Below are positions 2,104 to 15,604 of a stretch of DNA of 57,802 nucleotides, in pieces. The notes beneath the pieces were generated by a model that saw only the letters and a program-made list of their open reading frames with translations, was not told the DNA's origin and did not search any database. The stretch is from an uncultured Alphaproteobacteria bacterium (GTDB lineage: Bacteria > Pseudomonadota > Alphaproteobacteria > UBA11222), in assembly GCA_947258435.1 (NCBI GenBank), contig CAMYID010000006.1:1-57802 (forward strand), read 5' to 3'. The stretch's first letter is position 1, and each line of letters starts with the position of its first letter. Position numbers and translations under genes: made by a program.

Positions 2104-3207
2104 CTAAACAGCCAGCTTATAAAGCGTTGCGACATTGTCGTGCAGAATGTCTTTTTTCTGATCTTCGGTCAGACCGGACGTATGTTCAGCCAGAATTTCC
2201 TTGGACCAGGGCCAGGTCGAATCCGAATGCGGGAAGTCATTGGCCCACATCAGCCGCTTGGTGTTCATCATTTCAGCCATCCGGAATGCCACCCAGTCAT
2301 CCTGGAAGGTCAGATAGATGTTTTCCTTGAAATACTCACTGGGAAGCATGGCCAGTTCCTGACCCTTCATCCAGAACCGGTGCCGCTTATAGGCATGATC
2401 CATACGGTACATGTAGTGCGGCACCCAGCCGGCATCCGCTTCCACGCAGCAGATCCTGAGATCCGGGTTGCGCTCAAACACGCCCGAAAAGATCAGCATA
2501 CCCATGATATCCTGACAGCCGCGGATGATCGACTGGAATGCATTGATGCGCGGGCCGCGCGGTGCACCGCTGATACCGTCCGAGCTGCTTGTCAGAATAT
2601 GGAAGGAAAGCGGCAGTTCAAGCTCGATGGCAAGCTGCCAGAACGGGTCGTAAGCCGGATCGTCATAGTCCAGCTCGGCCGGATTGCCCGGCATCATCAC
2701 CCCGGCAAATCCCTGCTCCTTGATCTCTTTCAGATCCGCCATGCCTTCCGCGATCGAGCCCATGGCGATCTGCGCCAGCGGGATAAGCCGCTTGCGGTCT
2801 TCGGAACAATAATCAAGCAGCCAGCGGTTATAAGCCTTCATGCAGGCGCGCTTATATTCAAAGTCGGGATGGTTGCACATCACCATACCCACGGTCGGAT
2901 AGATGATTTCGGCCGCGACACCGTCCTTTTCCTGATCGGCGACACGATATTTCGCATCCCAACCGCTTTTCCACAGATCGTCGAAACGCATGCCATCCAT
3001 GCGCAGTTCGGACGGGTCAAGCCCGGCAGCCGCAACAAGTCCCATAGGAATCGGGTTGTCCATGCCGTTGACGACATAGATATCGCCCAGCCCTTCGACA
3101 AATTTCATCGACGGCGCCACATCGCGATATTTCGGATCGATATAATCGATATAGCAATTCGGCGGCTCCGTAATATGAGAATCCGCGGAAATCGGTACGT
3201 AGGACAT
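2104..3207 (-). CDS. Amidohydrolase 2 family metal-dependent hydrolase
   Basis: A 367-residue TIM-barrel hydrolase of the amidohydrolase-2 family (PF04909). The N-terminus carries the D-x-H motif in ISADSHITEP, and the C-terminal part carries WANDFPHSDSTWP, the conserved Asp-His segment of this family. Relatives include decarboxylases of the ACMSD/gamma-resorcylate group and hydrolases found in catabolic clusters for cyclic acids; the substrate cannot be read from sequence. GGAGGAAGAGGAG precedes the ATG. It is 87 nt upstream of the D-aminoacylase-like gene on the same strand, so the two are probably co-transcribed. Confidence 0.85.
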   Translation of the reverse strand: MSYVPISADSHITEPPNCYIDYIDPKYRDVAPSMKFVEGLGDIYVVNGMDNPIPMGLVAAAGLDPSELRMDGMRFDDLWKSGWDAKYRVADQEKDGVAAEIIYPTVGMVMCNHPDFEYKRACMKAYNRWLLDYCSEDRKRLIPLAQIAMGSIAEGMADLKEIKEQGFAGVMMPGNPAELDYDDPAYDPFWQLAIELELPLSFHILTSSSDGISGAPRGPRINAFQSIIRGCQDIMGMLIFSGVFERNPDLRICCVEADAGWVPHYMYRMDHAYKRHRFWMKGQELAMLPSEYFKENIYLTFQDDWVAFRMAEMMNTKRLMWANDFPHSDSTWPWSKEILAEHTSGLTEDQKKDILHDNVATLYKLAV

Positions 3208-3567
3208 GCGTTACTCCTCTTCCTCCAAAGCCTGGCCCAATCGTCGAACCGGCAGTTTTCTAGTTCCTGGTGCCACAACCGCTATGCAAGCGGCGGCACG
3301 GGCAAAGTCTTATATAGCCTGCGCTAAACAAAACTCTGATACCATATAAATCTCTTATAATATATGACAATTTTTCAGAAATTTCCACGCCGGCCCCCCG
3401 CGGCCCGGCGATATTTTTCGTATCTGCCTGATCAGAAAGGAAAATGCCGGATGCCCGACAGGGCGTCCACAGGGGACCCCCGGCCACGACAAGCCGGCAT
3501 TGGCTAAAGTGAACGTCGCATCGCAACGGAAGCCGCGCAGCGACTGCCCCGGCACACGGCGTTTCAG
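3208..3567. other. Intergenic stretch without a gene
   Basis: This 360-nt gap separates the MaoC gene from the amidohydrolase-2 gene on the same strand. I see no convincing coding frame. Around 3340-3370 it is AT-rich, and the complement holds TTGTCA followed 17 nt later by ATATGG, which could be a weak sigma-70 promoter for the amidohydrolases. If so, the minus-strand arm has at least two transcription units. Confidence 0.4.
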
Positions 3568-4422
3568 CTAGTCCTTATAGGTGACCTTGGCCTGCGACAG
3601 CACCACATCGCCGCCGGCGGTTTCCCCCTGAATGATCGCCTCACCCGGGGCGGTTTTCCACATCTTGGTGACGATCGTTTCGCCGAACTGCACCCGTTCG
3701 GCAAACCGGCCTGTCATGGAGACGAATTTCGCCGGATCGCCACCGCACAGACCTTTGAGCGCCGCACGCCCGATAAATCCATAAGTGCACAAACCATGCA
3801 TAAAGGGGGCGTCAAAGCCACCGAGTTTCGCGAATTCAGGGTCGATATGGATCGGATTCCAATCCCCCGACAGGCGGTAAATGGCCCCCTGCTCCATCAG
3901 CGTGGGGTAGGAAATCTCCACATCCGGCGCACGTTCAGGGGGCGCATTCCTCCCCTCGGTGGAGGGGCCCCGTTCGCCGCCAAAACCGCCCGCGCCGCGC
4001 ACGAACAGGCTGGCATAGGTGGTCAGCAGCACCCCATCGGCATCCTCAAGGGTACTTTCAATACCCAGCACCGCCGCCTTGCCCTTGTCCCAGACCTCGA
4101 CAATCTTGCCCGAAACCTTGCCCTTGGCATTGGCGGGGATCGGCCGCTTCAGCGCGAATGCCTGTTCCCCATGCAGCAACATCTCAAGCCGCAGATCGAC
4201 ATTCATCATGGCGCCCGCCATACCGCGACCACCCGGGATCACCGCAAAGGTCGGCAGCACGAGCGGCCCCTTGCCTTCGTAAACGAACTCAAGCTCATCG
4301 GCGGGCTTTGAGCCGACACCAAGCGCATAGAGCATGGTATCCTTCTGTGTCCAGCTCACCTCAACCGGGTCGAACACATGGCCAACCAGATCGGAATTCA
4401 AGGGCAGTTTCGACTTTGACAT
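3568..4422 (-). CDS. MaoC-like hydratase (hotdog fold)
   Basis: A 284-residue double-hotdog protein of the MaoC/2-enoyl-CoA hydratase-2 type. The second hotdog holds the hydratase-2 motif GDWNPIHIDPEFA with the catalytic Asp and His, followed by FDAPFMHGLCTYGF. The N-terminal half (SWTQKDTMLYALGVG) is the degenerate hotdog usual for eukaryote-like MFE-2 hydratases and actinobacterial homologues. It probably hydrates a 2-enoyl-CoA to the (R)-3-hydroxyacyl-CoA. The start at 4422 is chosen for the AGGAGAG just upstream; the frame is open 29 codons further, but those residues look non-coding (Arg-rich). Confidence 0.88.
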   Translation of the reverse strand: MSKSKLPLNSDLVGHVFDPVEVSWTQKDTMLYALGVGSKPADELEFVYEGKGPLVLPTFAVIPGGRGMAGAMMNVDLRLEMLLHGEQAFALKRPIPANAKGKVSGKIVEVWDKGKAAVLGIESTLEDADGVLLTTYASLFVRGAGGFGGERGPSTEGRNAPPERAPDVEISYPTLMEQGAIYRLSGDWNPIHIDPEFAKLGGFDAPFMHGLCTYGFIGRAALKGLCGGDPAKFVSMTGRFAERVQFGETIVTKMWKTAPGEAIIQGETAGGDVVLSQAKVTYKD

Positions 4423-4520
4423 CGCAGCTCTCCTGTCGCGTTTCGCACGCGGTGTAAAATGCCATCGCGCGAGCCGCACCGGCCCGCGCGATGTTCGGAA
4501 TTGTTGCAAACTGGCCGGCT

Positions 4521-5120
4521 CTAATAGCCTTTGGGCGCGCGTGGCGCTGGCTGACCGTCGGGGGCCCAGGCCTCGACGCCTTCTTCAAGCGGCACTTCAA
4601 GCGACAGCAGAAGCTGCGAAAACAGCCGCCAATTGCCGATGGCAACCACCATTTCCAGCAATTCCGCGTCATTCTTGATATGCTTGGCGCATTCAGCCCA
4701 GGTCTGCGGCGAAATCCGCCCCGAATCGAGTGTTTCGTCAGTAGCACGAAGCACCGCGCGATCCGCATCGGTCAGCACATCGGAATTTTCCCAGGAACGG
4801 CAGGCCAGCACGACCTCCTCCGGAATATCAAGCTGCATGCAAACGCGCCAATGCTGCGTCCATTCGTAGCAGGAGCCGGTGACCCAGCCGATCCGCATAA
4901 TGATCAGTTCACGCAGCCGCGCATCAAGCTGATTGCCCTGAAAAAGCAGCATGTTGAGCGTATTGCCCAGCTCACGCGCCAGGGGCGGATTCTTCAGCAA
5001 AATGCGGAAAACGCTCAGCGGCGCCATCGCTTCGGAAATATTTTCGGACGCCGCCGCCTTCTTTGCATCCTCGATCGACAGCATCGCTATGCGTGGTTCA
5101 TGTCCTGATGTGCTTGCCAT
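4521..5120 (-). CDS. Carboxymuconolactone decarboxylase (CMD) family protein
   Basis: A 199-residue all-helical protein of the CMD/AhpD superfamily. The core LDARLRELIIMRIGWVTGS is followed by CYEWTQHWRV, giving the E-x-x-H-like active-site helix of this superfamily. Only one Cys is seen at the usual CxxC position, so a peroxidase function of AhpD type is unlikely. In catabolic clusters such proteins are of uncertain function, being decarboxylases or accessory factors. GGGGAGAAG lies in front of the ATG. It is the first gene of the minus-strand arm, facing the alcohol dehydrogenase gene across a 152-nt divergent promoter region. Confidence 0.85.
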   Translation of the reverse strand: MASTSGHEPRIAMLSIEDAKKAAASENISEAMAPLSVFRILLKNPPLARELGNTLNMLLFQGNQLDARLRELIIMRIGWVTGSCYEWTQHWRVCMQLDIPEEVVLACRSWENSDVLTDADRAVLRATDETLDSGRISPQTWAECAKHIKNDAELLEMVVAIGNWRLFSQLLLSLEVPLEEGVEAWAPDGQPAPRAPKGY

Positions 5121-5272
5121 TGTATACTTCTCCCCTGCTGCAAGTTGTCATTTTTCCTATAATGGCGCAGTGTGAAATAAAACGCCATCTACATATCTGC
5201 GGCAAACTATTATAAGCTTCTCGCAAACAATGGAATAAGGCGTATCTTCAGAACATAAGGGGAGCGACGGAC

Positions 5273-6370
5273 ATGCCACCAAAATCATCTATGGCCATGG
5301 TGCAAACGGGCCCGCGCAAAATCGAAAAAATGGATTTGCCGATGCCCGACATCACCGACTACACCGCCCTGCTGCGGATCGAAGCCTGCGGCATCTGCGG
5401 CAGCGATTATGAACAATATGAAGGTGTACTGAACATGCCGATGCCGGTGGTGCCCGGGCATGAACCGCTCGGCGTGATCGAGGCGATCGGCGATGAAGCG
5501 GCGAAGCGCTGGAAAGTGGATGTGGGCGACCGGGTCTGCGTGGAAACCATGCTGTCCTGTCGCTTCTGCGGCCCCTGCCTTGGCGGCAACTACCATCTGT
5601 GCGAGGACCGGCGCATCTATTCCTATATCCCGATCGACGAGGGACCCGGCCTGTGGGGCGGCTATTCGGAATATATGTTCCTTGACGCCAACACCATCGT
5701 GCACAAGATCGACAAGGATCTGCCTGCTGAAATCGCGGTGATGTTCAACCCGCTGGGTGCCGGGTACCGCTGGGCGGTCGAAATCCCGCAGACCAAACCG
5801 GGCGACACGGTCGTCATCATGGGTCCCGGCCAGCGCGGTTTGTCGAGCGTTGTGGCCACCAAACAGGCGGGCGCAAAGACGGTAATCGTGACCGGGCTTG
5901 AGGCCGACGGCCCGAAAATGCAGATCGCGAAGGAATTCGGCGCCGATTACGCGATCGACGTGCAGAACGAAAACGCCAAGGAAAAGGTCAGGGAATATAC
6001 CCAGGGCAAAGGTGCCGATGTGGTTGTCGACGTCTCTTCCTATGCGACCGAACCGGTGGTCGACGCGTTGAGCTTCGTCAGGCCAGGCGGCACCATTGTC
6101 CTAGCCGGCGTCAAGGGCTACAAGCCGGTGCCGGGCTTTATTTCCGACGTTATCGTGATGAAGGAAATCACCATCAAGGGTGCGATCGGTGTGACGTCTT
6201 CGGGCTATACAAGCGCGATCGAACTGCTTGAGAAACGCATCATCCCGTTCGAGAAGATGCATACCCATGATTTCGACCTGACAGAGGCGGAACTTGCCAT
6301 CCAGACCCTTGCGCGGGAAATCGAAGGCGAGGAATCGGTGCATTCTTGCCTTGTTCCGGGGCTGAAGTAA
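5273..6370 (+). CDS. Zinc-dependent alcohol dehydrogenase (MDR family)
   Basis: A 365-residue medium-chain dehydrogenase. The N-terminal GroES-like domain shows the catalytic zinc motif EACGICGSDYEQYEG and PGHEPLG, then the structural zinc loop CRFCGPC with a fourth Cys in HLCED. The Rossmann domain carries GPGQRG for NAD(P). It oxidises an alcohol or reduces an aldehyde or ketone; its glutamate/aspartate-rich N-terminus resembles threonine/butanediol-dehydrogenase-like members. AAGGGGAG precedes the ATG. The thioesterase gene starts 5 nt after its stop, so the two are co-translated. The divergent arrangement with the CMD/MaoC/amidohydrolase arm suggests one pathway. Confidence 0.9.
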   Translation: MPPKSSMAMVQTGPRKIEKMDLPMPDITDYTALLRIEACGICGSDYEQYEGVLNMPMPVVPGHEPLGVIEAIGDEAAKRWKVDVGDRVCVETMLSCRFCGPCLGGNYHLCEDRRIYSYIPIDEGPGLWGGYSEYMFLDANTIVHKIDKDLPAEIAVMFNPLGAGYRWAVEIPQTKPGDTVVIMGPGQRGLSSVVATKQAGAKTVIVTGLEADGPKMQIAKEFGADYAIDVQNENAKEKVREYTQGKGADVVVDVSSYATEPVVDALSFVRPGGTIVLAGVKGYKPVPGFISDVIVMKEITIKGAIGVTSSGYTSAIELLEKRIIPFEKMHTHDFDLTEAELAIQTLAREIEGEESVHSCLVPGLK

Positions 6371-6374
6371 GCCC

Positions 6375-7220
6375 ATGGATGACGTTCGTAACTGGGTTGA
6401 GAACGCCCCCTATGCCAAGGCATTGGGGGTGCAACTGACCGATCTGAGTGACAGCGGCGCGTCTTTTCTGTTGCCCTTCGCCGAATCGAACGCCAATCCC
6501 GGCGGTGCTTTGCACGGGGGGGTTTACGCCTCCCTTTCGGTGATCGGCGGGCAGACGCTGGCACGCCACATTCTGGGACCCGAAACCGGGCCGTGGCACA
6601 CGATGGGCTTCCAGATCAACTACCTGGCTGCCGCTATCAATGAAGATGTACAGGCGGAAGCGCGGCTGCTGCGCCGGGGTAAGGAGCTGTGCTTTGTCGA
6701 GGTAACCTCGCGCACCGCGGAGGGCAAACCCACCGGCCATGCGACCGTGGCGATGCGCGGTCGCATGGGCAAGCCTGCGGCTCAGATGATCAAGGCCCCC
6801 GGCGATGATGGCAAATCCGACCCGGGTCCCATGGGCAAGCTGATGAGCTCGGTCAATTTCATAGCCGGGCGCGGCCTTGAGGTTGAACTGATGGCCGATA
6901 GCCGCGCACGCATCATCATGCCCGAACTTGAGGCCAATCGCGATCTGGATGGCGGACATCATGAGGGGGCTGTGCTGGCGCTGCTCGATACCTGCGGCGC
7001 CATGGCCGCCTGGGCGGAAACCGGCCCTGGCCCCTTCAAGGCTTCGACCGCGGCGATCCAGGCACAGATTCATAAAGGGCAGCCGACAGGCGAGCTTGTC
7101 TCCTATGCACATGTGATCAACCGCGACGATGAGATCTTCTGGAGCCATGTGGACGTCGCGGAAAAAGCCGGCGGCGATCTGATCGCGCAGGGCACGGTTC
7201 TCTACCGCATCGTGCGCTAA
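6375..7220 (+). CDS. PaaI-type thioesterase with two hotdog domains
   Basis: A 281-residue tandem hotdog protein. Each half carries a PaaI-like glycine motif: GGALHGGVYASLSVIGGQ (about residue 38) and DGGHHEGAVLALLDTCGAM (about residue 194). Single-domain PaaI thioesterases are about 140 residues, so this is a duplicated or fused form. It probably hydrolyses acyl-CoA or aryl-CoA thioesters, releasing CoA when the pathway stalls or making the free acid product. It is tightly spaced behind the alcohol dehydrogenase gene. Confidence 0.85.
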   Translation: MDDVRNWVENAPYAKALGVQLTDLSDSGASFLLPFAESNANPGGALHGGVYASLSVIGGQTLARHILGPETGPWHTMGFQINYLAAAINEDVQAEARLLRRGKELCFVEVTSRTAEGKPTGHATVAMRGRMGKPAAQMIKAPGDDGKSDPGPMGKLMSSVNFIAGRGLEVELMADSRARIIMPELEANRDLDGGHHEGAVLALLDTCGAMAAWAETGPGPFKASTAAIQAQIHKGQPTGELVSYAHVINRDDEIFWSHVDVAEKAGGDLIAQGTVLYRIVR

Positions 7221-7299
7221 TCGGATGCTGTCTGCTATTGTGATTAGCTAACGCTTCGTCAACGCAGTTCGAGCCAGCGCCTGTTGGGGGAGGCTGCTT

Positions 7300-9180
7300 G
7301 TGCAATACAAAAAACCACCTTCGTCGCTCCATGCCGCAGCCAGCGCGGCATGGCGGCACCAACGAATCCGCGTAAGATCCAAGCAAGACAAGTGGCATTC
7401 CATACTTTGGCGTTTTCTACTGCTGCCATTTGATTTGTTAGTTTGGTTCCTGTTTTCATTCGTCTTTAACCCGATAGGCTGGGTTTTACGGAAGGCGGGA
7501 AGAGCATTTCTGCTACTGGCGGCGATCGCATTGATGTCGCTCCTCCAAGCATATGATCCGCTCGGCATTTACTCCAATTCCGACAGATTTACCGCCACGA
7601 TCATCTATCAGATTTTCTCTCCGGAACTCTATTCCTCCGACAGAAGAGAAAGAGTGACCGTCATTTTGCTTTCAGACAATGACCTGAACGAAATGGGAGA
7701 GGCCTGGCCCATCGAGTACGGGACGCACGCACTGATATTGGATGAAATACAGAAGCTGAAACCCAAATCCGTGTTCGTCGATTTCGGATTTCTCGACAAG
7801 CGGGATGACGACACCATAGTGGACCTGCAGAACACGATCCGGAACTATCAGAGCGGCATTTTGGATGGAGACAACGGAAGCGACATACCCGGCAGACCAC
7901 TTATGTTCGCAACCGCCGAGGCGAACAACGCCATCCCGTCAGATGGTGCAATCGATGAGATCGCGAACGCCGCCGCACTGGTAACTGCACCCGGCGCATT
8001 CTATTCCGCGTTCGGACTGAAATACCCGCTCTGGAACTGCATGGCCACCGAACGCAGAGATGGAACCGGGTTCCGCCCCTCTCCTGCGCTGGCAGCCTTT
8101 GCCGCAACATCTGCAAAAAGCGCCGAAAATCCGAGTACGACAAAAGCAGGCATACACAATGCCAGCTTCGACCTGGCGCAAAAAATAGTCGGTACCGAAC
8201 ACGCAGGCGAGATGCAGGTATGCCTTCCCCACGACCTCAACATGCGGAACGAGGAGAAGGTTTCACTTCCGCACGATGCCTCACACATGGAGGTCATCTG
8301 GGGTGTGGTCCCGCCTTACCGTACCGATCTCGGGGGATTCCAGTGTGACCGTGATCAGCCGGTCGATCATTTCTGGCGCAGAGCTTTTTTTGCGCTTGGG
8401 AATCTCTTCAAGGAAAAAAACCAGGGAGATACACGGGAAGAAATCGGCATGTTGCGGCAAACCTGCGCGCCGCACCTGACAATCGGCGCATCGCAATTCC
8501 TTGCGCTCACGCCGCTGCTCGAAGCAGAGAGTTGCCAAGCGGTGACCGCGAGCAACCGGCCCGTCAGCGAGGACGACCAGGAAGGGGAGATTTCCAACAA
8601 ACACGGTATAGCGGCAGAAAACTGCGAAAAAGCCCTCGCAATAAAGGCTGCCATTCAGGGTAAGCACATTATCTATGGCGGCAACCTCACTATGGCGGCC
8701 GACCTTGTTCTGCCGCCGACACACAAGCCGTTGCCAGGGGCCTACTTCCATGCGATGGCACTGGATAACCTGCTGGAATATTCGAGCGGCGGGAGTGCGG
8801 CACCGCCCGCCTTCCGGGTCGCCGAAACCAGATGGTTTGGCCACGATGCAAGTCTCATCATAGAAATCGGTATTCTATTATTTTATGTCGGCTTGTGGGA
8901 TATCGGAAAAAATCACAGCGACAGGAAAAGAATATCCTATTTGCAGGGGCTTCGAGATGAAACAAATAACAATGTCATATATGAAATTGACTACAAGGCT
9001 CAGCATATCCTAAGCTTTATCAAAATCAGAAATGTCATTTTATTGTCTATTATCTCTCTTTTTGCGTTTTCGACACTGCTTGTTTTCTTCCTGTATTTCA
9101 CAAACCTTGCAGTGATAAATTTTACCGCCATCCTTGGAATTCTCGCACTGCGGGAAATTCCGCGCTGGTTTGCATCATAA
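7300..9180 (+). CDS. CHASE2-domain membrane protein without output domain
   Basis: A 626-residue protein. Two hydrophobic segments lie near the N-terminus (about 38-60 and 67-85). They are followed by a long extracytoplasmic CHASE2-like domain recognisable by VTVILLSDNDLNE, GEAWPIEYGTHALILDEI and PKSVFVDFGF. The C-terminal 100 residues contain three hydrophobic stretches (about 523-545, 575-600, 600-620), then LALREIPRWFAS and the stop. In known CHASE2 proteins the domain is followed by transmembrane helices and a kinase, cyclase or adenylate/guanylate domain; none is present here. The GTG start is supported by GGGGGAGG 7 nt upstream. It reads in the same direction as the secreted protein and M48 peptidase genes, 121 nt before the next start, so a signalling or sensing role with them is inferred. 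Confidence 0.8.
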   Translation: MQYKKPPSSLHAAASAAWRHQRIRVRSKQDKWHSILWRFLLLPFDLLVWFLFSFVFNPIGWVLRKAGRAFLLLAAIALMSLLQAYDPLGIYSNSDRFTATIIYQIFSPELYSSDRRERVTVILLSDNDLNEMGEAWPIEYGTHALILDEIQKLKPKSVFVDFGFLDKRDDDTIVDLQNTIRNYQSGILDGDNGSDIPGRPLMFATAEANNAIPSDGAIDEIANAAALVTAPGAFYSAFGLKYPLWNCMATERRDGTGFRPSPALAAFAATSAKSAENPSTTKAGIHNASFDLAQKIVGTEHAGEMQVCLPHDLNMRNEEKVSLPHDASHMEVIWGVVPPYRTDLGGFQCDRDQPVDHFWRRAFFALGNLFKEKNQGDTREEIGMLRQTCAPHLTIGASQFLALTPLLEAESCQAVTASNRPVSEDDQEGEISNKHGIAAENCEKALAIKAAIQGKHIIYGGNLTMAADLVLPPTHKPLPGAYFHAMALDNLLEYSSGGSAAPPAFRVAETRWFGHDASLIIEIGILLFYVGLWDIGKNHSDRKRISYLQGLRDETNNNVIYEIDYKAQHILSFIKIRNVILLSIISLFAFSTLLVFFLYFTNLAVINFTAILGILALREIPRWFAS

Positions 9181-9301
9181 GGCGACCCCGGGCCACGTGA
9201 CCGGACGGCCGCTTGAGCACGTGACGCCTTGCGACCTACCGCAGCATGTGGTTAAATTTTCGTTAGCATATTGTTGCCGGGAAATGGGGGGGGGGTCGCG
9301 C

Positions 9302-9709
9302 ATGCCAAAAATACGCTATCCGAATACCTATCGCGAAATTTGCGCACGATTGCCACAGGCGCTGGCGGGAGTGACACTTTCAGCCTTACTTGTGGCGATC
9401 GCCGGAATCGGCCCGCTTCACGCACAAACCTATACCATTGAAAAAATACGCGGGGGGAAGGTCGCCCTACTTGACCCTGTTTCCGGAAAGAAAACCGGGG
9501 AGAGCATCACCAGGGAGAACATGGGAAGCATCAAAGTGCTTGGGGATGCAGGCAACGGAAAACTGCTTGTTGAGCGCGGCGGCCAAAAATACCACGCAAA
9601 ATCGTACAAGCTGATCACCGACATGCCGGTGAACATTTCCAGCAAGTGCCAGAGCGTCAATCAAACAGGTTATGCCGCAACCCGGGGGGCGGGCTCATGC
9701 ACACAATAG
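9302..9709 (+). CDS. Small secreted protein, SH3-like beta-rich domain
   Basis: A 135-residue protein not assigned to a named family. Residues 1-42 form a Sec signal peptide (hydrophobic core at about 20-36, likely cleavage after LHA in PLHAQTYT). The mature 93 residues are predicted mostly beta: TYTIEKIRGGKVALLDP, IKVLGDAGNGKLLVE and QKYHAKSYKLI alternate like an SH3/KOW-type barrel. Two Cys (116 and 133) could form a disulfide. The start is chosen at the ATG preceded by a G-rich Shine-Dalgarno stretch and directly followed by the signal peptide. Its end overlaps the M48 gene by 13 nt, so the two are translationally coupled. A periplasmic partner or inhibitor of that peptidase is a guess. 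Confidence 0.7.
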   Translation: MPKIRYPNTYREICARLPQALAGVTLSALLVAIAGIGPLHAQTYTIEKIRGGKVALLDPVSGKKTGESITRENMGSIKVLGDAGNGKLLVERGGQKYHAKSYKLITDMPVNISSKCQSVNQTGYAATRGAGSCTQ

Positions 9710-11421
9710 TCTCGTGCGATGTAAAATCATCCAATGCCGATGTGCCGGGCGTCCGGCTCCTGCGCGCAGCTTTGCGGGCCCTGACGGCCTGTTCGGTGTG
9801 CCTGTGCATCGCGTTGAGCGGCAATGCGCAGGCAGGCCTGTTTGACAAGCTGAAACCGGGGAAACGGCCGCACGAGAAAATCGATGGCACATTCATCGGT
9901 ACCGTGGAACCCGGGCGGTGGACACCCCCCAAACAGATGGGCCGGGCCGGACAATCATCGGACGGACAAAAGGCCGGTGCCGCCCCTTCGGGGATGGCGA
10001 TCATCCGCACTGGCACCCCCGGTCCGGCAACCGCGCCGGGTTATCAAAACTATCTTCAGAAGATTGCGGATCGTATCGGCAAACATTCCCCGGTCACGGA
10101 TGTTCCCATCAAAATCGTGATTACCGGAGATCGACAGTTTGGTACAGCACAAGCGACGCCGGACGGTGTGATCGCCATGCCTCTGGGAATGATACGGGAT
10201 CTGGAGAACGAGGACGAACTGGCATTCTGGCTTGCGCATGAGATCGCTCATGTGCATTTGCGCCATCATGGCTCCGACTGGCTGCGCGACTTCCAGGACC
10301 GCAGTCTGGCCATGGGCGAAATGACCCTGGGTTACGTGAATGCATTCGAGTCCGCTTGGGCCCAGTTCACCGGAGGCACCGGCAAGACCGGGATCTCAAG
10401 CAAGCTGGAGAGCGGACTCGCATATGGCCATGCAGCTTATTCGGCGACAAGCAAGGCCCTGTTGCCGAACTGGAATCGGGATCAGGAAGACGAAGCCGAT
10501 CTGATGGCGATGGACCTGATCATCCGCGCCGGATATAGCGGCGAGGCGGCCTTTTCCGCCATGGAGAAGATGCGGGCATGGGCGGAAAGCAACAATGAAG
10601 CCGACCAGATTGAAGCGCAACAAAAGAAGATTGAGGACAGCCTGAACAATTCCGGCACCGCGCCCGATTTCACGGCTGCGCTGAACAGCGCCAAGGCGGC
10701 TGCGGGATCGGTCTGGAAGAAACTCGAAGGCAAACTTACACGGCGGCATCGCTCGCCGGAAGATCGGTTGAACGCCTTGTTTGCATATTATGAGCGTGAA
10801 TATGAGGATCTCTCACCGCCCGATCTGCGGACCACTTCGTTCAGCCAGGCAAAGGCAACGCCTCAGAATGCTCTCGCAATGCGGCATTATATAAGCGGAT
10901 GGGAAGCATGGGATGCCTGGCATGCCGGCGATGAAGCCAAAGCGGTCAGACTTGCGCGGGCGGCCATTGCCGCGCCGCATCAATCGGATCCCGAATTACG
11001 ATTCATCTTCTACACCATCCGGAACGGGCAGGAACAACAAAAGAACGCGCGCCTCAATCTCGAATATGCGGCAAGAGGAGAAGGCGCGACCCTGAAAATC
11101 TACCAGCAACTGGTCTTCACCCAGGTTGGCCAGGGCGAAGTTGAAAAAGCGATCGATACTGCCAATCAGGCCTGGGCTGAGCTGGAACGCCCGGGACATC
11201 TTTATCCCGTCCTGATCGATCTTCATGTCCAGAATGGCGACATTAAGGAGGCCCGGCGGCTGACGAATGAATGCCGGCTGAATCACCGGAAGGAACTGGG
11301 TAAGACCTGCGCGAGAACGCTTGAGAATGCACAGAAGCAAAGCGATGGCGCCGTCGCATCGTCACAAGACAGCAGCAGGAACCCGTTTGCAAAACTGACA
11401 CCGGCTTTCATCGCCAACTGA
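9697..11421 (+). CDS. Periplasmic M48-family metalloprotease with helical repeats
   Basis: A 574-residue protein with a signal peptide (hydrophobic 28-42, cleavage near GNAQA-GLFDK). The M48 catalytic region is ELAFWLAHEIAHVHLRHH with HEIAH at 181-185, and the third zinc ligand is in DQEDEADLMAMDL (Glu about 264). From about 370 onwards the protein is alpha-helical with TPR-like periodicity, as in BepA-type periplasmic proteases that attend outer-membrane protein assembly. The start ATG at 9697 is inside the last codons of the preceding secreted-protein gene; the frame is open further upstream. Family knowledge gives periplasmic quality control; the link to the CHASE2 protein is inferred from gene order. 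Confidence 0.88.
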   Translation: MHTIVSCDVKSSNADVPGVRLLRAALRALTACSVCLCIALSGNAQAGLFDKLKPGKRPHEKIDGTFIGTVEPGRWTPPKQMGRAGQSSDGQKAGAAPSGMAIIRTGTPGPATAPGYQNYLQKIADRIGKHSPVTDVPIKIVITGDRQFGTAQATPDGVIAMPLGMIRDLENEDELAFWLAHEIAHVHLRHHGSDWLRDFQDRSLAMGEMTLGYVNAFESAWAQFTGGTGKTGISSKLESGLAYGHAAYSATSKALLPNWNRDQEDEADLMAMDLIIRAGYSGEAAFSAMEKMRAWAESNNEADQIEAQQKKIEDSLNNSGTAPDFTAALNSAKAAAGSVWKKLEGKLTRRHRSPEDRLNALFAYYEREYEDLSPPDLRTTSFSQAKATPQNALAMRHYISGWEAWDAWHAGDEAKAVRLARAAIAAPHQSDPELRFIFYTIRNGQEQQKNARLNLEYAARGEGATLKIYQQLVFTQVGQGEVEKAIDTANQAWAELERPGHLYPVLIDLHVQNGDIKEARRLTNECRLNHRKELGKTCARTLENAQKQSDGAVASSQDSSRNPFAKLTPAFIAN

Positions 11422-11534
11422 CGAAATTCGCCTCAGGCAACGCCGGTCGTACAGCCGGCTGGCCATTGCCCGCGGCACACGATACTGTTTCTCCGAACAC
11501 AGAGAGCGGATACATCTCTCCCGGGAGGGAAAGC

Positions 11535-12278
11535 ATGAGTGTGGATCAATTGCGGGACATGTTGTCATCGTGCCGGCGCGCGGTTGTTTTTACCGGCGCG
11601 GGGATCAGCACCGAATCGGGCATTCCCGATTTCCGCAGCCCCGGCGGCTTGTGGACGAAATACAAGCCTGTCTATTTCGATGATTTCATGCGCTCGGAGG
11701 ATATGCGCCGCGAAACATGGCGGCGGAAATTCGCCATGGAGGGAACCTTTTCGCAGGCAAAACCCAATCGCGGACATCAGGCCGTGGCGCAGCTTGTCAA
11801 GCGTGGCATCGTCTCATCCGTCATTACACAGAATGTCGATAATCTGCATCAGGATGCGGGCGTCCCCGACGACAAGGTGATCGAACTGCACGGCAATTCA
11901 AGCTACGCCACCTGTCTTGACTGCGGTACGCGGTACGAAATGCCGCCGATCCGCGAAGCCTTTCTTCGCGATGAGACGCTGCCGGTCTGCGACCGCTGCG
12001 GCGGAATTGTAAAAACCGCGACCATCTCTTTCGGGCAGTCCATGCCGGTGGCGGCAATGCGCCGCGCGGAAGAGGAAACGCTGGCCTGCGATCTGTTCCT
12101 CGCCATCGGCTCCTCGCTTGTGGTCTATCCGGCCGCCGGATTTCTGTCGGTTGCGAAGCAGAACGGCGCAAAGCTTGTGATCCTTAACCGCGAGGCGACC
12201 GAGCTTGACGCGCTGGCCGACCTCGTCCTGAACGATGAAATCGGCCCCACCCTGTCTGCGGCAACCGGCCTGAACTGA
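11535..12278 (+). CDS. Sir2-family NAD-dependent protein deacylase
   Basis: A 247-residue sirtuin, typical bacterial length. All hallmarks are visible: FTGAGISTESGIPDFRS (NAD site), TQNVDNLHQDAG, the catalytic His in VIELHGNSS, a zinc-binding pair CLDCG and CDRCG, and IGSSLVVYPAAG. It removes acyl groups from lysines in the cytoplasm using NAD. GGGAGGGAA stands before the ATG at 11535; codons upstream are open but lack homology. It is separated from the M48 gene by 113 nt and followed by a terminator, so it is probably its own unit. Confidence 0.93.
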   Translation: MSVDQLRDMLSSCRRAVVFTGAGISTESGIPDFRSPGGLWTKYKPVYFDDFMRSEDMRRETWRRKFAMEGTFSQAKPNRGHQAVAQLVKRGIVSSVITQNVDNLHQDAGVPDDKVIELHGNSSYATCLDCGTRYEMPPIREAFLRDETLPVCDRCGGIVKTATISFGQSMPVAAMRRAEEETLACDLFLAIGSSLVVYPAAGFLSVAKQNGAKLVILNREATELDALADLVLNDEIGPTLSAATGLN

Positions 12279-14164: not shown

Positions 14165-14383
14165 GCTCCCTACCCTTTTTTGGTTTTATGCCGATTCTGT
14201 TGCGGCGTGTGCAACGCCCATAGCGATTGCAACTAGTATAACGGATTTTCGGCCAACGAGAATAGTTTCACGCGCAAATGCCAGCGCATGCACATCCTGG
14301 CTGTGACCAAACGATTTGCCGGGCTTTCCCGCGGCGCATAGAATTGGCGCCAGATGCATGCACAAAAGGGGGAGGCAGCACAA

Positions 14384-15604
14384 ATGGGGCGCAATCTTAT
14401 CATCTGTACAGACGGGACCTGGAACACGCCCGATCAGCGTGATCAGAACCGGCTTGTCCCCTCGAATGTCGTGAAGATGTGCCGCGCGACAAGCGGTCAG
14501 AGCAAGGACGGCACCGCACAGCTTGTCTATTACGATGCGGGTGTGGGAACAGGCGGCATGTGGGACAGGCTGAAGGGCGGCATGTTCGGCGTCGGCCTGT
14601 CTGAAAATGTCACCCAGGCCTATGCGGCATTGGGCCAGACCTATCGGCCCGGCGACAGGCTGTTCCTGTTCGGCTTTTCGCGCGGCGCCTATACCGCGCG
14701 CAGCCTTGCGGGGCTGATCGGGCTGTGCGGCATTCCCGCGGCGGCGGACGACCGCGGCAAAGCCGAGGAAATCGCGGAAAAGGCCATGGCCATCTACCGC
14801 ATGGACCCGAAAAAAGACCACGGCGCGCGCGAAAAAAAGGCCGCCGCACATGCGCGGGAATTTGCACATCGTAATGCGCAGGACGATGTGTGCAACGAGG
14901 TCTGGTTCATTGGGGTATGGGATACGGTGGGCGCGCTTGGCGTGCCGCTCAACAAGCTGAACTTCATTGCCGCCAGCAAGCACAGGTTTCACGATGTAAC
15001 GCTGGGGACGCATATCCGCAATGCCTGTCACGCACTGGCTATCGATGAGCGGCGCAAACCCTTCCGCCCGACACTCTGGATGGGATCGGACACACCGCAA
15101 CCCGAAACCCAGAAGGTGCAGCAATTATGGTTCCCCGGTGTCCATTCCAATATTGGCGGCGGCTATCTGGATGCCGGTCTGTCCGACCGTGCCTTTTTGT
15201 GGATTGCGCTGCAGGCACGCGATTGCGGCATGGGGCTCGATGCAACCTATATGGGGCTGCGGGTCGATCCGAATTATCACGCGGAACTACGCGATTCGAT
15301 GACCCGCATCTATCAGGCGATGGGACCGGTGAGCCGGCAGCTGTCGGGCGCACGCAGCCGCGCCGATGGGGGCACCGCCACCGCCCTGGGGGAGGCGATC
15401 CACTATTCCGCCAAACACCGCTTTGAGCATGTCACCCAGTCGAGCTATGCGCAAAGCCATGCGCGGGGAAATCTTGGTGCCGCATTGGCGGACCCGCACA
15501 GTCGGATCGCGCCCCCCCTGCCCGATGAGGGGAAAATTCACCTGACCGGCGCAATCGACTGGAATGGCGACCCCGCCGCCCCGACCGCGAAGACTTTCTA
15601 CTGA
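14384..15604 (+). CDS. DUF2235 alpha/beta hydrolase (Tle1-like)
   Basis: A 406-residue DUF2235 protein. It opens with NLIICTDGTWNTPDQ and carries the nucleophile elbow LFGFSRGAYTARSLAGLIGLCG (GxSxG). Further family blocks are WFIGVWDTVGALG and WFPGVHSNIGGGYLDAGLSD. The fold is that of type VI phospholipase effectors (Tle1), but no type VI genes, VgrG or immunity gene lie in the window and no signal peptide is seen, so a cytoplasmic lipase or esterase is more likely. The ATG at 14384 follows GGGGGAGG. It is divergent from the monooxygenase and 71 nt ahead of an SDR gene. Confidence 0.85.
   Translation: MGRNLIICTDGTWNTPDQRDQNRLVPSNVVKMCRATSGQSKDGTAQLVYYDAGVGTGGMWDRLKGGMFGVGLSENVTQAYAALGQTYRPGDRLFLFGFSRGAYTARSLAGLIGLCGIPAAADDRGKAEEIAEKAMAIYRMDPKKDHGAREKKAAAHAREFAHRNAQDDVCNEVWFIGVWDTVGALGVPLNKLNFIAASKHRFHDVTLGTHIRNACHALAIDERRKPFRPTLWMGSDTPQPETQKVQQLWFPGVHSNIGGGYLDAGLSDRAFLWIALQARDCGMGLDATYMGLRVDPNYHAELRDSMTRIYQAMGPVSRQLSGARSRADGGTATALGEAIHYSAKHRFEHVTQSSYAQSHARGNLGAALADPHSRIAPPLPDEGKIHLTGAIDWNGDPAAPTAKTFY

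Follow-up and report, generated by a model that had tools for sequence, protein, structure and literature searches.

The window analysed here is a stretch of 57,802 nucleotides (nt) from an uncultured Alphaproteobacteria bacterium (contig CAMYID010000006.1). Between positions 7300 and 11421, its forward strand carries three genes that form a conserved, horizontally patchy envelope module: (i) a CHASE2 membrane protein without an output domain (7300-9180); (ii) a small exported protein, here called SH3-like (9302-9709); and (iii) an exported M48 metalloprotease (9697-11421). No description of this CHASE2-SH3-M48 set was found in the open-access literature searched, subscription papers lying outside that scope, and the set suggests an undescribed envelope sensing or protein-cutting system. 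The reading tentatively favoured here, with a probability of roughly 0.47, is that the CHASE2 protein anchors and gates the M48 protease through the SH3-like protein.

The link among the three genes, already supposed in an original prediction made from the letters of the window, is well supported by their conserved neighbourhood. The genome that holds the window (G000, 2.88 Mb) belongs to an order represented by 6 genomes in the comparison set; its sister genome G001 carries the whole trio, with 61% identity between the two CHASE2 proteins. Conservation in G001 and in distant families also rules out chance open reading frames (ORFs) at 7300-11421. The window CHASE2 protein was matched in 9 of 385 class genomes, its own included, and the M48 gene adjoins CHASE2 in seven of the other eight loci (L016-L022), the eighth (L023) being without M48. 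A first scan of named genomes with this protein alone gave no relative, and an alignment of eight module CHASE2 proteins (A1) was needed, which yielded 80 loci among 191 confirmed relatives. Among the matches listed, these 80 loci are heavy in Pseudomonas and Stutzerimonas (34/80); by class, they fall into Gammaproteobacteria (44), Betaproteobacteria (19) and Alphaproteobacteria (14), with three unplaced. An M48 match (A2 profile) is present in 78 of them, while L087 and L152 end soon past the CHASE2 gene.

Altogether, 94 module loci were compared (the window, L015-L021, L084-L163 and L164-L169). All three genes are found in 91 of them, on a single strand in 91/91, in the order CHASE2-SH3-M48 (86 loci) or SH3-M48-CHASE2 (five loci); the three incomplete loci (L087, L121 and L152) are cut by contig ends. 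A hidden Markov model (HMM) of the SH3-like protein, built iteratively from module loci, matches 93 of the 94, the exception being L121, where the contig begins within the M48 gene. Relatives thus keep both the secreted protein and the peptidase beside CHASE2 and, as the profile search also recovers CHASE2 itself (see below), neither of the two outcomes that were to refute the original prediction came about. On a Caballeronia plasmid, the existing annotation of the trio reads 'CHASE2 domain-containing protein', 'hypothetical protein' and 'M48 family metalloprotease'. A fourth conserved gene was not found in the module flanks, which hold only lineage-specific neighbours; flank genes are common to a minority of loci at most, mostly close relatives. 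Pairwise, the distance matrices of the CHASE2, SH3-like and M48 proteins correlate at 0.78, 0.73 and 0.64, compared with a maximum of 0.27 after shuffling (2000 shuffles each). In terms of distribution, the module is present in 12 of 139 genomes of one genus (that of G598; SH3-like profile), and such sparseness argues against a general housekeeping role. Furthermore, Pseudomonas copies occupy at least two separate places in the CHASE2 tree (L103/L117/L147 and L143), which suggests transfer or old paralogy.

The first set of loci was picked by CHASE2 similarity and not by neighbours, but A1 itself was built from module proteins. Hence, as a guard against circularity, a search was run with the SH3-like profile alone. 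This profile matched 5 of 396 phylum genomes, the window's own included, and each of the other four (G598, G636, G706 and G733) also has a strong match to the module CHASE2; two more genomes with strong CHASE2 matches, G710 and G504, were missed by this short profile. Within the 139-genome genus it fetched 11 new loci, and an outputless CHASE2 gene with an adjoining M48 gene was found in 11/11. In the phylum search with A1, M48 was present in all six of the strongest other genomes. As a control, 54 further CHASE2 loci (L170-L223), some with flanks cut by contig ends, were scanned with two M48 profiles: M48 lies near five of them, namely four type II loci and L206 (both kinds are described below). 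A FecR-like neighbour is clear in five of these 54 loci and weak in L199. This control replaced an earlier one, in which no M48 was seen at 30 strong CHASE2 loci but the flanks were too short.

Two loci matched in the class-genome scan, L022 and L023, were left out of the module set. In L022, a protein of 989 amino acids (aa; 8199-11168, reverse strand) matches the module CHASE2 profile in its C-terminal part only and is followed by a small exported-looking ORF and then by an M48 gene; the protein gave no Pfam match and no module SH3-like gene was recognised in the locus, which is possibly a distant variant of the module. L023 presumably encodes, judging by eye, a CHASE2 kinase-like protein with a FecR-like neighbour and no M48, and it resembles the known LysM-FecR/CHASE2 kinase operons considered below.

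The CHASE2 protein of the window (626 aa, GTG start) belongs to the CHASE2 family, scoring 40.1 bits in PF05226 against a cut-off of 26.3 (E=4.2e-10). The domain spans residues 114-508 (7639-8823), is predicted to be periplasmic and is flanked by hydrophobic segments at residues 39-57, 66-84, 517-535 and 579-597, with the C-terminus close behind the last of them. In the AlphaFold model of its core, the predicted local distance difference test (pLDDT) mostly exceeds 85 over residues 121-180 and lies at about 80-96 across most of residues 391-490. No other Pfam family (to E<=1) and no NCBIfam family was matched, and the protein lacks the cytoplasmic output that characterises receptor-type CHASE2 proteins. 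The early description of a CHASE2 domain with helices on both sides and no kinase or cyclase was, therefore, accurate. It also holds for the relatives. PF05226 is matched by all 58 of the module CHASE2 proteins scanned; cyclase, kinase and phosphodiesterase families gave no match at E<=0.01, TIR_2 matched two of the proteins, and what few matches there are to other families are weak. The tail after the last membrane segment is of at most 74 aa in 93 of the 94 module proteins, L169 having been missed by the motif search.

A branch with a Shimodaira-Hasegawa-like approximate likelihood ratio (SH-aLRT) support of 100 separates the 44 module proteins from the rest in a tree of 74 CHASE2 proteins. 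Like the other trees, this one comes from a quick or a FastTree search, and the CHASE2 and M48 trees have some long branches that were flagged. Several positions are conserved in this subfamily: (i) C349 and C389 (window numbering; stretch 8344-8466), the pair that marks it, each present in 41 of 44 module proteins and in none of 30 output-bearing ones; (ii) Y140, found in 38/44, the same position being Arg in 30/30 of the others; and (iii) the HAMALDNLL motif (8749-8775), which precedes the last membrane helices and of which H484, A485, A487 and N490 are kept in 44/44. That only the window copy is truncated and has thereby lost an output domain was considered and rejected, as all the relatives are without output and share one common branch. 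Regarding the fold of the CHASE2 domain, Foldseek gave no match at E<=0.001 and VIA-align no Z of 5 or more; no ligand is, therefore, proposed, and the lack of a match is no proof that the fold is new.

The second gene lies within ORF 9134-9709 and probably starts at ATG 9302, from which the 135-aa product has a signal-peptide-like N-terminus. Its predicted structure combines an all-beta core (pLDDT >90) with a loose tail, and its Foldseek matches include bacterial SH3-type structures, none of them at E<=0.001 (best 0.045); an SH3-like fold is, then, likely. The window copy has no match in Pfam and falls outside SH3_3 and SH3_4, each of which matches 2 of 53 members of the family (best E 5e-4). 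The tail (9647-9700) carries a glycine-rich two-cysteine motif, C...TRGAGSC, in which C116, G129 and C133 are kept in at least 90% of the 53 sequences.

Two in-frame starts are available to the M48 ORF, GTG at 9646 and ATG at 9697, and its stop is at 11421. Counted from the ATG, the protein has 574 aa and its gene overlaps that of the SH3-like protein by 13 nt (9697-9709), as had been read from the sequence at the outset. Its place among the M48 peptidases rests on PF01435 (50.3 bits against a cut-off of 20.3; E=3.4e-13), on the zinc-binding and catalytic motif HEIAH (10237-10251) and on the third zinc ligand motif EDEADL (10486-10503). The C-terminal region is TPR-like (tetratricopeptide repeat), with weak TPR matches in Pfam. 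Across the module, HExxH is present in 90 of 92 M48 proteins, the two exceptions being cut by contig ends, and the third-ligand pattern E/Q..AD in 89 of 92. Near its C-terminus, the window protein has a cysteine pair (11272-11310, forward strand; CRLNHRKELGKTC) shared by several relatives in the A2 alignment, which possibly forms a disulfide hairpin. In L091, a second M48 gene (5571-7106, forward strand), probably a tandem duplicate, follows that of the module.

The CHASE2 protein is preferred as gate and anchor because M48 is the only enzyme kept in nearly all the loci and because its site is undecayed in every complete copy seen. We infer the localisation of the parts, their contact and the direction of control as follows. 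The CHASE2 protein would be an inner-membrane protein whose sensor domain faces the periplasm and which acts as both receptor and anchor for the protease. The SH3-like protein would couple the two, its folded core holding on to one of them and its flexible two-cysteine tail to the other. Envelope proteolysis would then be released or redirected by a cue or a contact on the periplasmic side, so that the output would be the protease rather than a cytoplasmic enzyme. The initial suggestion that CHASE2 signals through its envelope partners fits the near-total absence of cytoplasmic domains and, to that extent, stands as a conjecture.

Three observations weigh against this reading. Tree agreement is expected from co-inheritance alone; the TIR-CHASE2 fusions show that a cytoplasmic output can exist; and, since G004 and G005 have the SH3-like and M48 pair but no outputless CHASE2 gene, this protein is not strictly required. 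On a broader and more tentative view, CHASE2 may, in one ancient lineage, have been turned from a receptor for a cytoplasmic enzyme into a controller of a periplasmic protease via a dedicated SH3-like adaptor, with input and output both in the envelope; such an arrangement would have come about at least two times, in one form with a cyclase and in another without, and would be able to take a TIR effector.

A rather unlikely alternative, although the best placed of the rivals, reverses the direction of control: the protease and the SH3-like protein would act upstream, sensing or processing a periplasmic item and switching CHASE2, which would pass the signal via its membrane helices to a partner in the cytoplasm whose gene is not linked to the module, for example a cyclase. 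Three variants of the module (type I) speak for it. Firstly, type II loci resemble the module in both the kinds and the order of their three parts, i.e., CHASE2-cyclase, SH3 protein and short M48, in 7/7 loci (L179, L180, L181, L183 and L274-L276, the last three fetched through the type II SH3 protein). The cyclase domain, PF00211, was found in the three type II CHASE2 proteins scanned (L179, L181 and L183) and the remaining ones were assigned by homology. Unlike the module, these loci have a cyclase, lack a cysteine pair of the C349/C389 type and belong to different CHASE2 and M48 branches: their CHASE2 proteins form a branch of their own among the output-bearing ones, and their M48 proteins fall in the part of the tree that holds BepA, LoiP and the long M48 proteins of the window's and related genomes, away from module M48. 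Consequently, the combination was probably assembled at least twice, and its occurrence in this separate lineage also counts in favour of the preferred reading. Types I and II share no genome among the 139 of one genus (12 and 4 genomes, respectively, the latter figure excluding G812, with a weak SH3 match at E=4e-4), but the overlap expected by chance is about 0.35, and hence mutual exclusion is not claimed.

Secondly, in type III loci (G004 and G005, which belong to the family of the window), SH3-like and M48 genes of the module kind stand as a pair beside a CHASE2-cyclase gene and convergent with it, and neither genome yielded an outputless CHASE2 gene. G002 has this pair as well, close to a contig end. 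In the sister genus g2, the pair stands beside a CHASE2-cyclase paralogue (L206 and L240) that is 44% identical to the family's other cyclase, and these genomes have no outputless CHASE2 gene. Thirdly, in two loci of alphaproteobacterial type, L098 (Defluviicoccus, 5209-7242) and L099 (a metagenome assembly, 2747-4780), which retain the SH3-like and M48 genes, a TIR domain at residues 66-182 precedes the CHASE2 domain, on the presumed cytoplasmic side (TIR_2, E=4e-21 and E=7e-22, respectively); the two proteins are alike at 608 of 677 positions, so the fusion is counted as one event and not two. Also in line with upstream action, an output-bearing second CHASE2 protein adjoins the module in L165 (3285-5279, forward strand); from its motifs, the C-terminal half of this protein is presumably an HD-GYP domain. 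However, L165 is the only one of the 94 loci with a second CHASE2 protein of more than 350 aa within the fetched flanks, and the cytoplasmic tails of the module proteins are short.

The periplasmic quality-control role advanced in the original prediction found no support and is improbable. In such a role, the M48 protein would clear stalled outer-membrane proteins in the manner of BepA, and CHASE2 would report on it. This would suit the TPR-like region, and the solved structures closest in sequence are those of an M48 peptidase and of BepA. Nevertheless, module M48 proteins form a separate branch away from E. coli BepA and LoiP (SH-aLRT 96), and the window protein scores 40.1 of the 570 bits of the BepA equivalog NF052400 of NCBIfam, which places it outside that family. 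The sparse distribution (12/139 and 5/396 genomes) also speaks against quality control, as do two further M48 proteins of comparable length encoded by the window's genome, one of which groups with BepA with modest support.

Even less probable is a role in conflict or defence, in which the outputless module would work as a sensor-protease and the TIR form would bring in a death effector. The TIR_2 fusions and the patchy distribution agree with it, but the TIR form is limited to a near-identical pair among 58 proteins, there is no other conserved neighbour, and five proteins matched none of the PADLOC families at E<=0.01, which leaves them outside known anti-phage systems. Finally, that chance or a shared mobile neighbourhood brought the genes together with no functional link is hardly credible: synteny alone cannot prove function, but the same trio recurs with unrelated flanks across three classes, and the five control loci with M48 are the related types II and III.

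Among the systems already described, the closest are those in which a CHASE2 membrane protein is co-encoded with an exported envelope partner, such as the Burkholderia biofilm operon, where LysM-FecR accompanies a CHASE2 histidine kinase (passages of PMC5192318). There, CHASE2 bears a kinase and its partner is LysM-FecR, whereas in the module CHASE2 is outputless and the partners are an SH3-like protein and a protease. CHASE2 sensing is also tied to envelope proteins in the Campylobacterota adenylate cyclases with FecR and TPR genes (PMC9239204) and in CyaD1/CyaD2/CyaK of Sinorhizobium, CHASE2 cyclases fed by the outer-membrane barrel NsrA (PMC13001267). Their output, in contrast, is cyclic AMP, and the relevant passages of both papers mention no M48 or SH3 partner. 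BepA, YcaL and LoiP (PDB 6sar, 6ait and 3c37), described as envelope M48 proteases of E. coli in a passage of PMC13067283, are exported zinc proteases as well, BepA with a TPR region; they differ from the module M48 proteins, which have constant CHASE2 and SH3-like neighbours and an accessory distribution. The passages of PMC8195603 on CHASE2, metalloproteases and SH3 concern other systems.

The ligand sensed by CHASE2 domains is stated to be unknown in the corresponding passage of PMC5192318. In a CHASE2 subfamily that has no enzyme but comes with a protease and a small adaptor, the sensing half stands by itself and its partners can be named. Moreover, the module predicts that CHASE2 proteins of the cyclase type work with an envelope protease, gives a place to function-less 'hypothetical protein' genes, and opens ligand, contact and proteolysis to test in culturable Pseudomonas and Stutzerimonas.

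As for the surroundings of the module in the window, two genes that are not among its conserved neighbours in the flank comparison lie downstream on the forward strand: (i) a Sir2-family gene (11466-12278; PF02146, E=1e-45), which starts 45 nt past the M48 stop; and (ii) a gene for a protein with the catalytic domain of Tle1-like phospholipases of the type VI secretion system (14354-15604; PF09994, E=2e-80).

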